From: Prevotella sp.
Lineage (GTDB): Bacteria; Bacteroidota; Bacteroidia; Bacteroidales; Bacteroidaceae
Direction: 5' to 3'
Assembly (NCBI GenBank): GCA_017615355.1
Contig: JAGAAJ010000005.1
Location: forward strand, 1 to 37,367
DNA length: 37,367 nt
A program made the translations under genes and the position numbers. The notes beneath the pieces are model-generated. The model was given only the letters and a program-made list of their open reading frames with translations. It was not told where the DNA came from and made no database searches. Below are positions 18,865 to 22,189 of the stretch, one piece after another (positions within the stretch are counted from its first letter, which is position 1; each line of letters starts with the position of its first letter).

Positions 18865-20781
18865 CTATAGTGTCAGCGGCAGTTCGATGATGAAGCGGCA
18901 TCCCTCGTGGTAGTCGGCGTCGAGGATGAGGTCGCCGCCCAGGTTCGTGATGTGGCGCTTGGCCAGCGGGAGGCCGAGGCCGAGCCCCTCGGAGAGGTCG
19001 TCTATCTTGGTGAAGAACTGGAACACCATCTCGCGGTCGGCTTCGGCAATGCCCCTGCCTGTGTCTTCCACGATGAAGCGGACGACGGGCGATGCAGCGT
19101 CCTTGTCGACGGTGATCCTGATCGCCACATGCTGGCCGTCGGAATACTTGGCTGAGTTGTAGAGCACCTCCCTGAGGCTGCGCATCAGGTAGGAGTGATT
19201 GGTGCGAACGGTGAAGCTGTCGTCCACCTCCGTCTGCAGGTTGATGTTGAGGTCGGGGTAGTAGACCTTGACGTAGTCGATGGTCTCACGTGCCAGGTCG
19301 TTGCACGCCACATTGTCGCGTTTGCCGCTGCGGAGCTCTTCTGAGAGTCCCGTGTCGGAGCTGTCGAAGAGCATCAGGACCATGCGGTTGAGCAGCACGG
19401 TGTTGTGGTTCATCATGCCCGTGATGCCCTTCTTCTCTTCCTCGGGCAGCTGTCCGTCGGCGTCGCGCAGCACCTGTGCAAAGCCCATGATGATGTTGAG
19501 CGGTGTGCGTATCTGGTGCGACACGTTCTGTATGAAGGCCAGCTTCTGCTTGTCGGCCTCCTCGGCCACCTGTGTGGTCTTCGCCAGCTCCTCGTTGCGC
19601 TTCTCGGTCTGTCGGGCGGAGTGGCGCACGATGCCCATGTGGAAGTTGAGCGACTGCAGCATGGAGGCGAAGCTGTTCTGCAGGCGTCCTACGACGTCCT
19701 CGCGATGGCTTTTCGGGATGTGCACCTCCATGTTGCCGTCGGCGATGCTCTGCGTCCTTCCAAGGAGCATGAAGAGCGGACTGATGGAATGCTTGACGGC
19801 CCTGTGGCAGAGCAGGAGGATGACAATCAGGCCGATGATGAGCAGCGGGATGATGATGTAGGAAAGCTTGTGGTAGCCTCCCAGGATGTCGCTGTCAGGA
19901 CAGACGAGGGCGAGACTCCAGTTGGTGCCAGGCACGGGCTGATAGCAGACGATGCAGGACTCCCCGTCGATATCGAGGGCCATGTTGCCTGCCTTGCCCT
20001 TTGTCATCTCGTGTCCCAGGATGATGAGGTCGGCCTGGCTCTTTGTGTCCACGCCGTCGAAGATGGTTGTGGTGAAGAGGCGTGACGGGTCGGGATGGAT
20101 GAAGAAGTGTCCCTCGTCGTCAATCATCATGAAGTAGGCGTTAGGGTAGGGTTTCTCTTCTTCTGAGATGACCTTCGAGAGTCGCAGCAGCGAGATGTCG
20201 GTGGAGATGATACCGAGGAAGCGGTCGTCGGCGTCGTACAACGGCAGTCCGTAGGAGGCTATCATGCCGTCGAGCGTCAGCTCCAGCGAGTCGGCTTCGT
20301 CGAAATAGGCCACCCAGCAGCGGTCGTTGAGGTTGCGCGGCGTCTTATACCATATCTTGTCGAAGTATTCGTACTGCTCCTCGATGGTGGACACGATGCT
20401 GTCGCCCTCACGGATGGAGTAGACGGAGAAATAACGGCCGTATTCGGGGAAGATGTCGGGCTCGGCGCTGACCGAACAGCCGTCGACGTGGGGATTCAGC
20501 TGCACGACGCGGTGGCTGAGAGCCAGTATGGAGTCGGGGTTCAGGTATTCCGCCACGAGCCAGCTGCTGGCGTTGGTTGCCGTCTCGATGGCGTTGATCT
20601 TCTGCGTGAGGCGCTGCATGGCTGCCGTCAGCACGCTGTTGGCACGTCCCACGGCCTCGTTGCGGATCATGTGGCGCGACTGTGTGAAGAGCACGCCTAT
20701 CGACACCACGAAGATGGGCACAGCCAGCAGCAGGAGTCCCAGGCTGAGCTTCGTCGAGAAGGACCTGCGGATGTTAATCAT
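18865..20781 (-). CDS. Membrane sensor histidine kinase (Cache-HAMP-HisKA-HATPase)
   Basis: 638 residues. Membrane span at ~10-33, a periplasmic double-Cache-like sensor (~34-305), second span ~306-328 (IIIPLLIIGLIVILLLC), a HAMP linker (~330-385), HisKA with FIQNVSHQIRTPLN and the phosphoacceptor His422, and a HATPase domain with N box LREVLYNSAKYS, G1 box VEDTGRGI and G2 box GLGLGLPLAKR. All catalytic motifs are intact. No receiver domain is fused and no response regulator gene is nearby, so the partner is encoded elsewhere. Its ATG overlaps by 8 nt the stop of the upstream sensor-like gene, which has the same architecture but a dead, truncated kinase part; equal expression of the two is likely. 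Confidence 0.93.
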   Translation of the reverse strand: MINIRRSFSTKLSLGLLLLAVPIFVVSIGVLFTQSRHMIRNEAVGRANSVLTAAMQRLTQKINAIETATNASSWLVAEYLNPDSILALSHRVVQLNPHVDGCSVSAEPDIFPEYGRYFSVYSIREGDSIVSTIEEQYEYFDKIWYKTPRNLNDRCWVAYFDEADSLELTLDGMIASYGLPLYDADDRFLGIISTDISLLRLSKVISEEEKPYPNAYFMMIDDEGHFFIHPDPSRLFTTTIFDGVDTKSQADLIILGHEMTKGKAGNMALDIDGESCIVCYQPVPGTNWSLALVCPDSDILGGYHKLSYIIIPLLIIGLIVILLLCHRAVKHSISPLFMLLGRTQSIADGNMEVHIPKSHREDVVGRLQNSFASMLQSLNFHMGIVRHSARQTEKRNEELAKTTQVAEEADKQKLAFIQNVSHQIRTPLNIIMGFAQVLRDADGQLPEEEKKGITGMMNHNTVLLNRMVLMLFDSSDTGLSEELRSGKRDNVACNDLARETIDYVKVYYPDLNINLQTEVDDSFTVRTNHSYLMRSLREVLYNSAKYSDGQHVAIRITVDKDAASPVVRFIVEDTGRGIAEADREMVFQFFTKIDDLSEGLGLGLPLAKRHITNLGGDLILDADYHEGCRFIIELPLTL

Positions 20782-22189
20782 GGTCGTCCTCCTTTCCCAT
20801 GTCCTTGTCCGACATGTTGATGAGATTGCTCAGCAGCTCGGCAATGTCCTCGCCGTTCTTCTGGATGTCGTTGGCCAGGCTGTCGGCCTTTTGCGGGCCT
20901 ATCTCCTGACTGTAGTTGCACAGGAGGTTGACGTCCATGCTGATGGCATTGGCGGGGCCCACCATCTTGATGGTCATATTGTGCAGGAAGGACGTCTTCA
21001 TGCGGTCGGCCCTCTTTATGCGGGTGTAGGCAGCCTGGAGGCTTTCGCTGCGCTCCTCCATCGTGGCTTTCAGACTCTCCATCTCGCCCATCTTCGCCGA
21101 CAGCGACTGCTGCATCTGCTGGAAGTTCTCCTGCAGACGGCCTATCTCGTCCTGTCTGTTGGTGTCGGGAATCTTCTCGTCGTAGTGGCCTTTCGCGATG
21201 TGCTGGGCCGAGCGTGTCAGCAGCAGCAACGGCTTCAGCTGGTGATGGGTGAGTGCACGGCAGAGAATGAAGAGCAGAAGCAATCCCACGAAGGCGATGA
21301 TGAGCACATAGTACAGCAGCTTGTTGTAGTCGCCGAAGATGTCGTCCTCAGGATAGATGATGCCGGCGCTCCAGCCAAGCTTCTGCATGGAGCGGCCTGT
21401 TACGGCGGCACGCTCGAAGGGCTTGTAGAAGACGTAGTAGTCGGCGCCGTTCTTGGTGAATCGCTTATAGCCCGTCTCGCCCGAGAGCATCGCCTTGGCG
21501 GCTGCTTGGGCAGAGGGGTCGGCGTTCTCATTGTTGGTGAAGACGGTCTGGTGGTACAGCTTGGTACTGTCAGGATAGACGATGAACGAGCCGTCGCCGG
21601 CCAGCAGCGTGCTGTAGGAGTTGGCCGAAGGCTTCGCTTCCAGCACGATCTGCGAGAGCAGGCTGAGCGACGCGTCGACAGCCATCACTCCTATGGGCTG
21701 GCCGTCGGCACCCGGGAGGGGCAGGCAGAACGTGATGATGGGATGCTTGGCAATCTTGCTCGCCGAGGGGTCCTGCCATCCGGGCATCCCCGCCGCCATG
21801 GAGTTGACAAACCAGGGCTGCTTCGCATAGGCGCTGTCCGTCTTGAAGGCGATGATGCAGTCCACGATGTAGGGATTCGACGCGATGAGCTGCTTCATGT
21901 AGCGCTTGCGCTTCTCGGCGTCGTCGAGATGGGGCAGGATGTTGAAGTAGATGTTGCCCGACGCCTGCTCTACGCTCAGCAGGATGTTGTCGATGCGCTG
22001 CACGGTGCCTTCCAGGGTCTGCGCAGCCTTCTGCAGCGCCTCCTCCTTGACGGCCTTCCTCGAATAGTGCAGCATCACCACCAGCGATGCCAGGAGCAGG
22101 ATAGCCATCGCAATAACCATCATAAGACTCAGTCGGATTGACAGAGTCTTACGGATGATTCTTGGAAGGCGTATCTTCATCATGCTCAC
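20774..22189 (-). CDS. Cache-HAMP protein with a degenerate, truncated histidine kinase core
   Basis: 471 residues, paralogous in layout to the kinase downstream. Span ~15-42, periplasmic Cache region ~43-288 (with PWFVNSMAAGMPGWQDPSAS and PIITFCLPLPGADGQPIG), span ~289-312, HAMP ~313-366 and a coiled coil to ~395. Residues ~396-465 align without gaps to the HisKA helices of the neighbour (ADRMKTSFLHNMTIKMVGPA against ADKQKLAFIQNVSHQIRTPL), but the phosphoacceptor position is Ile407, the following Arg-Thr is lost (only the Pro is kept), and the protein ends where the HATPase domain should begin. It cannot be a kinase itself; heterodimerisation with, or allosteric control of, the downstream kinase is the natural inference. 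The start could be Met1, Met3 or Met4. Confidence 0.88.
   Translation of the reverse strand: MSMMKIRLPRIIRKTLSIRLSLMMVIAMAILLLASLVVMLHYSRKAVKEEALQKAAQTLEGTVQRIDNILLSVEQASGNIYFNILPHLDDAEKRKRYMKQLIASNPYIVDCIIAFKTDSAYAKQPWFVNSMAAGMPGWQDPSASKIAKHPIITFCLPLPGADGQPIGVMAVDASLSLLSQIVLEAKPSANSYSTLLAGDGSFIVYPDSTKLYHQTVFTNNENADPSAQAAAKAMLSGETGYKRFTKNGADYYVFYKPFERAAVTGRSMQKLGWSAGIIYPEDDIFGDYNKLLYYVLIIAFVGLLLLFILCRALTHHQLKPLLLLTRSAQHIAKGHYDEKIPDTNRQDEIGRLQENFQQMQQSLSAKMGEMESLKATMEERSESLQAAYTRIKRADRMKTSFLHNMTIKMVGPANAISMDVNLLCNYSQEIGPQKADSLANDIQKNGEDIAELLSNLINMSDKDMGKEDDHD

Follow-up and report, generated by a model that had tools for sequence, protein, structure and literature searches.

We analyzed a 37,367-nucleotide (nt) stretch of contig JAGAAJ010000005.1 from the Prevotella sp. 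assembly GCA_017615355.1 (hereafter, the window), focusing on two overlapping minus-strand genes that encode membrane proteins of the sensor histidine kinase type. The upstream gene of the pair is referred to as A and the downstream gene as B (Table 1). A preliminary description of this DNA, made from the letters alone, had reported adjacent genes overlapping by 8 nt, a like order of sensor, HAMP, and HisKA-like helices in both proteins, a complete downstream kinase with His422 and the N, G1, and G2 boxes, and an upstream protein whose gapless HisKA-like helices carry Ile407 and are followed by no HATPase domain. Each of these features was recovered in our analysis. Pfam detected dCache_1 and HAMP in both window proteins, with a weak HAMP match in B, and matched HisKA and the catalytic and ATP-binding domain (HATPase_c, hereafter CA) in B and neither of them in A. 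B is therefore a HisKA sensor histidine kinase by its domains, having HisKA with the His and HATPase_c with N and G boxes; in A, the phosphoacceptor position is Ile407, HATPase_c is absent, and the protein ends after the dimerization and histidine phosphotransfer (DHp) domain. His422 and Gln423 of B, together with N542, G575, G599, G601, and G603, did not vary in either of two B protein alignments, one with 32 sequences and the other with 71.

Table 1. Features of the A–B pair in the window, and extra upstream genes at related loci
Feature	Position	Strand	Details or basis
Gene A, membrane pseudo-histidine-kinase, 471 aa	20774..22189	-	GTG start, with ATG codons 6 and 9 nt downstream of it
A dCache_1 periplasmic sensor, residues 46-259	21413..22054	-	Pfam, E 1e-15
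A HAMP, residues 313-364	21098..21253	-	Pfam, E 3e-13
A DHp-like two-helix domain (predicted), about residues 391-466, final domain	20792..21019	-	A profile against 2c2a/3dge; gapless hhalign alignment to B DHp
A Ile407 codon, phosphoacceptor position	20969..20971	-	Alignments and sequence
8-nt overlap, A stop/B start	20774..20781	-	Sequence
Gene B, complete sensor histidine kinase, 638 aa	18865..20781	-	Sequence, Pfam, alignments
B dCache_1 sensor, residues 114-291	19909..20442	-	Pfam, E 7e-15
B HAMP, residues 332-379, weak	19645..19788	-	Pfam, E 0.002, below cut-off
B HisKA/DHp, residues 413-468	19378..19545	-	Pfam, E 3e-10
B His422 codon	19516-19518	-	Aligned opposite A Ile407
B HATPase_c (CA), residues 531-637, N/G1/G2 boxes	18871..19191	-	Pfam, E 1e-16
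Extra upstream genes at other loci, in line with A and B	L131:1630-2649, L133:6005-7000, L134:5971-6972, L138:1618-2589, L078:5955-6968, L076:6026-8253, L135:406-2608		

Conservation and origin of the gene pair

Of 398 genomes searched across the genus, 159 had matches at E<=1e-24, including 124 with matches at E<=1e-50. DNA was taken around many of these matches and around 80 named loci, two of whose records are labelled Bacteroidales only (L205 and L220), and 208 adjacent A–B pairs were obtained after dropping A genes with identical tails; eight of them belong to a short class typified by a pair on contig C141 of the window's own assembly. That assembly (90% complete) holds two pairs in addition to that of the window: one on C14, in which a 486-aa A with Asp at the site overlaps a complete 642-aa B, and the one on C141, in which a 341-aa A that has lost most of its sensor overlaps a 483-aa B with HisKA and its His and without CA.

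In all 208 pairs A extends only 52-89 residues past the site, whereas B extends at least 209 residues past it in 193. The preliminary description had suggested that orthologs with a full-length first kinase would mark A as a local truncation, and we found no such A among the 208 pairs. The site residue of A is other than His in 205 pairs (Asn 128, Asp 57, Thr 8, His 3, and Lys, Gly, Glu, and Gln 2 each, with Tyr, Ile, Ala, and Arg once each). The proposed conservation of a non-His site and of the truncation thus held, while Ile itself proved to be a single case, that of the window, in a family where Asn or Asp is the rule. In B, the corresponding residue is His in 188 pairs, Gln in 11, Arg in 5, and Tyr, Pro, and Asn in one each, with one gap in a broken copy. 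The A stop and B start overlap by 1 to 30 nt in 149 pairs, most often by 8 nt (65) or 4 nt (64); the genes are spaced by 0 to 41 nt in 29, and the longer overlaps in the remaining 30 probably reflect the choice of start codon.

Every A with sufficient flank adjoins a B, and the two A genes without one (L114 and L163) both lie at contig ends. Most of the pairs were collected through searches with A, so the set alone is no proof that B depends on A. A hand count compared the full output of a B-centred profile search with that of an A-centred one in 16 genomes chosen for having A. All 42 CA-bearing B genes lay directly downstream of an A; 38 of these B genes gave one continuous match, and the other 4 gave a fragmented match or one that missed part of the sensor. 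Rumen Prevotella carry a conserved two-gene cassette. The pair is also present in the records of named strains (Xylanibacter ruminicola Ga6B6 and D31d, and Prevotella sp. tc2-28 and ne3005), which makes the system testable. Tandem double pairs were observed at L052, L070, L201, and L202, the second A of L052 being cut at the end of the stretch. At L101:3857-6631, the B frame continues into a SIS-domain protein (GKRP_SIS_N) for a total of 924 aa, which is either a fusion or a sequencing error.

The C-terminal part of A was compared with known DHp domains. Pfam HisKA gave no match to the A of the window at E<1 and reached E<=0.1 in 19 of 80 A sequences scanned. The A family profile aligned at E of about 8e-7 to 2c2a and 3dge, chains of the histidine kinase HK853, over their residues 11-87, which we take to be the DHp part, and the last 80 residues of A aligned to the DHp helices of B over 77 columns without gaps (hhalign, 98%, E 2e-14). 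By profile comparison, A is thus predicted to have the two-helix DHp fold. A proteins whose partner B has the His keep the helix 1 core at 89-96% (K-9, F-6, L-5, M-2, M+2, P+5, and I+9 relative to the site, with Pro+5 at 92%) but no longer conserve R+3, T+4, L+6, and N+7, which B retains at 97-99%. This pattern is what would be expected of a dimerizing helix pair freed from catalysis. The site is Asn or Asp in 185 of 208 pairs, indicating a constrained position, and its polar residue appears to keep some remaining role. A His at position -4 was considered as a replacement acceptor and rejected, as it occurs in 137 of 180 A proteins with a His-bearing B versus 15 of 20 without and so does not track the loss in B.

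Selection was then estimated on a previous collection of 142 pairs by comparing relatives 72-97% identical. A had a median dN/dS of 0.12 (57 pairs) and B one of 0.10 (85), and the medians for their DHp parts were 0.15 (54) and 0.09 (76), respectively; purifying selection acts on A. When 88 dCache-HAMP parts were placed in a tree, 24 A sequences fell on one side of a branch with support 92 and 24 B sequences on one side of another with support 99, with largely matching inner branching orders. As A forms a single clade, its loss of His and CA dates to the root of the family. The sensor of B joins the dCache-HAMP-SpoIIE phosphatases of the genus ahead of A (support 97), the SpoIIE label being assigned by motif and confirmed by Pfam for L011 and L012. 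When 295 genomes of the order were searched and at most five candidates of each were scored, none outside the genus combined an A-length frame with DHp coverage, and the 29 loci from outside the genus placed in the tree all fell outside the A clade. The two confirmed phosphatase genes (L011:2677-6036 and L012:2598-5540), whose sensors are close kin of those of B, each directly follow a gene for an NMT1-type periplasmic-binding-protein-like protein. The domain make-up, the conserved loss of His and CA from A, the gene order, the single origin, the purifying selection, and the co-divergence described below are all direct observations.

Variants of the pair

Of 196 full-size pairs, 19 have a B without the His (L076, L078, L131, L135, L138, L266, L269, L273, L275, L277, L280, L282, L286, L293, L294, L295, L299, L302, and L303). 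The ATP site of these B proteins is intact, with N542, D573, G575, G599, G601, and G603 kept in all 19 and G577 in 18, and in 17 of these pairs A has no His either. On the B tree, the loss requires at least five changes, or three when only well-supported branches are counted. It is conceivable, though doubtful, that the pair kinases are exclusively heterodimeric with one subunit a pure sensor-dimer half, and that the derived branch with His-less B signals by an ATP-driven conformational change without phospho-histidine.

Three further arrangements were found. At L282 and L293 the site is swapped, with His in A and Gln in a B that keeps its CA, and the two A proteins are 67% identical. In the short class (C141 type; L010:3741-6214 and L251-L257), neither partner has CA and the second keeps its His. 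An extra upstream gene encodes a membrane-anchored 323-354-aa dCache-type protein ending after the second membrane span; it occurs at five loci with a His-less B (L076, L078, L131, L135, and L138) and at two with the His (L133 and L134), and two of these loci also encode a 406-407-aa dCache-HAMP protein. Most of the other 14 His-less loci were fetched with too little flank to judge extra genes.

A proposed heterodimeric kinase and its alternatives

A is kinase-like, without a phosphoacceptor in 205 of 208 pairs, and conserved at dN/dS 0.12, as a pseudo-histidine-kinase partner should be. We consider it likely that A and B make up a sensor kinase that is an obligate heterodimer, to which A would contribute one half together with an additional sensor. 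The two proteins, made from overlapping genes, would join through HAMP, a coiled linker, and their DHp helices, and the resulting parallel four-helix bundle would have a single phosphoacceptor (His422 of B) and a single catalytic domain (the CA of B). Each dimer would have two dCache sensors, one from each subunit. By way of the HAMP and pseudo-DHp helices of A, the periplasmic state of this subunit would reach B and set whether the CA of B gains access to the His of B itself (in cis) and whether B behaves as a kinase or a phosphatase toward a response regulator encoded elsewhere. The physical contact, the direction of control, the cis autophosphorylation, and the identity of the regulator are what we infer. 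The preliminary description had likewise read A as a pseudokinase paired with an intact neighbor; the 205 non-His sites, the 208 truncations, the absence of a B without A from the searched genomes, and the purifying selection support the first part, the heterodimer itself is a proposal, and the neighbor is not always intact (19 of 196).

Absence of coevolution between the two helix pairs was among the results that, in the preliminary description, would speak against the pairing. HAMP and DHp distances of A and B correlate at r 0.85, and none of 999 shuffles was as high. Since equivalent columns should covary in a parallel A–B dimer, we performed mean-field direct coupling analysis on the HAMP-DHp part of the 196 pairs. 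Among all offsets, the band of equivalent columns ranked first by mean (0.0135), compared with a mean of -0.0026 (SD 0.0055, maximum 0.0093) over 224 other overlapping bands, and it held 18 of the top 200 couplings, the other bands averaging 5.9 with a maximum of 13. As homologous columns share variability, a control was run in which partners were swapped within clades (reduced alphabet, 20 shuffles, four cluster levels). The real contrast of 0.0061 exceeded all 20 shuffles at each of the four levels (maxima 0.0041-0.0057).

Several observations weigh against the heterodimeric reading. The near-diagonal count among the top 200 couplings, 16, was matched or exceeded by shuffles at three of the four levels (maxima 15, 18, 16, and 17), and the equivalent-column band was not the richest among the top 25 or the top 50 couplings. 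Co-divergence of neighboring genes is also expected from joint inheritance of a cassette. Both the mirror-tree signal and the near-diagonal coupling looked stronger without the shuffle control than with it, and coevolution thus lends weak to moderate support to A–B contact. In addition, the finding of no B without A holds for the 16 genomes searched, all chosen for having A. HisKA kinases usually have an acidic residue at H+1, and B has Gln there in 196 of 208 pairs (H422 and Q423 in the window, 19513-19518), which leaves the autokinase strength of B unsure. Finally, the 19 pairs with a His-less B are not explained by a one-site kinase.

A heterodimer with one His and one CA needs cis autophosphorylation in B; if B acts in trans, A would be an inhibitor. 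In that alternative, which we regard as unlikely, A–B dimers would be dead and A, as a stoichiometric partner, would titrate B until the ligand of A releases it, in the manner of RetS. A has neither acceptor nor donor, which would make an A–B dimer incapable of trans phosphorylation, and inhibition of GacS by RetS is described (PMC12675982); the overlapping genes and the presence of A ahead of 42 of 42 B genes in the 16 A-bearing genomes point more to a constitutive subunit than to an inhibitor that titrates B. It is less probable still that A works apart from B, as a homodimeric decoy or a receptor of its own whose DHp face binds the response regulator of B or some other partner without touching B. 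Inactive DHp domains can bind regulators, as DivL binds DivK (PMC4211667), yet A is without the R+3, T+4, and N+7 that are conserved in B, and each A with enough flank adjoins a B.

We give very little credence to a split kinase in which His-less kinases with an ATP site complement CA-less partners with a His across loci, as in FasB/FasC. Both halves exist (the 19 His-less B proteins, and the short class at L010 and L251-L257), two pairs have His in A and Gln in B (L282 and L293), and the CA of FasB has been proposed to phosphorylate the His of FasC (PMC12675982). Among the matches listed, though, the CA-less type occurs in 2 of the 15 searched genomes (of 19) with the His-less type versus 11 of 47 others, by a hand count on frame length that left more distant frames of about 490-506 aa unclassified. 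A third genome with the His-less type carries a broken remnant of the CA-less type (L258). That A is a decaying kinase pseudogene retained by accident beside B, or a local truncation, as its lost catalytic parts and a window Ile that differs from its relatives might suggest, is excluded for practical purposes by a dN/dS of about 0.12 over A, a single clade, and a frame end shared in 208 of 208 pairs.

Known systems and possible output partners

Histidine kinases are taught as homodimers. divL is unlinked to cckA, and RetS and GacS are unlinked hybrid kinases whose catalytic parts are retained. To our knowledge, no system among DivL, FasC, RetS, the ChrS variant, and RcsD has lost the His as well as CA while also having its partner next to it at every locus and several copies per genome. 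No description of the A–B pair was found in the open-licence literature among the matches listed.

FasB and FasC of group A Streptococcus are kinase-like membrane proteins of one operon that form a heterodimer by two-hybrid assay and, like A–B, include a proposed pseudokinase with a dispensable CA (PMC12675982). In contrast to A, FasC keeps His246 and a putative CA; the operon includes the regulator gene fasA, while A–B has no adjacent same-strand regulator; and each Fas protein has six putative transmembrane domains, unlike the dCache-HAMP sensors of A and B (PMC12675982). A–B is not a split pair of the FasBC type, because B has the His in 188 of 208 pairs and CA in all except the short class and broken copies, and no receiver was seen adjoining it on the same strand. 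DivL of Caulobacter is, like A, a pseudokinase with a non-His site, and it influences signaling by a second kinase, CckA, as proposed for A; its site is Tyr and its CA is dispensable for activity, and it differs from A in retaining CA, having several PAS domains, and binding DivK~P (PMC4211667). The DivL family has Tyr, rarely Ala, together with CA, whereas A has Asn or Asp as a rule and no CA.

RetS-GacS of Pseudomonas resembles the A–B model as a kinase-kinase heterodimer that sets output, and differs from an obligate A–B heterodimer in that both proteins also homodimerize (PMC12675982). ChrS-Ala245fs of C. glutamicum is CA-truncated like A and alters signaling by a paralogous kinase in a manner that needs its DHp, but it is a laboratory-evolved frameshift rather than an ancient gene, and a heterodimer with the truncated form was not detected (PMC9491836). 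RcsD, a kinase-like membrane protein lacking the conserved His, interacts with the full kinase RcsC; unlike A, it has an HPt domain and passes phosphate on (PMC3762810). Control by pseudo-histidine-kinases is thus already known from DivL, FasC, RetS, the ChrS variant, and RcsD, and the A–B pair is a variation on it.

If the heterodimeric reading is correct, the pair would be a natural, expanded family with one active site and two unlike sensors per dimer, giving access to how the signal of the empty half reaches the active half. It would also bear on cis versus trans autophosphorylation without engineered mutants and offer ready parts for two-input sensors, and the His-less branch with an ATP site would raise the question of kinase-core signaling without phosphotransfer.

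We next examined where a regulator for B might be encoded. The genome of the window has 15 HisKA and 9 Response_reg Pfam hits, and none of the nine lies on the contig of the window, in agreement with the preliminary description, which had seen no response regulator nearby. An orphan REC-HisKA-HATPase protein (P0003 on C80; L322:1462-2586; Pfam) has orthologs in 108 of 124 pair-bearing versus 48 of 274 other genus genomes, and the 16 pair-bearing genomes without one are all listed as at most 90% complete. P0003 may be a candidate downstream partner, and it is kept only as a lead because a shared clade could explain the co-occurrence.

Around the pairs, same-strand neighbors within 200 nt were scanned with Pfam (65 of 69 upstream and 56 of 59 downstream, the seven omitted being A or B genes of tandem pairs), and Response_reg was absent from the families matched by at least 3 of the 65 or at least 2 of the 56. 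A fixed regulator in the neighborhood was rejected, as neighbors vary from locus to locus. With a receiver profile built from the genome's own nine Response_reg hits, no receiver gene adjoining the pair on the same strand was seen in 180 flanked loci, so the pair does not form a canonical two-component operon. Receiver-like genes were detected at seven of these loci. Two hits were weak, in 1003-aa proteins (L190 and L194), and five were strong, representing three places (L136=L220, L168, and L089=L183); at each of these the receiver lies on the other strand from A and B. The gene at L136:6025-6375 (= L220:8024-8374) encodes a 116-aa single-domain receiver and is convergent with the pair, 20 nt from the end of B.

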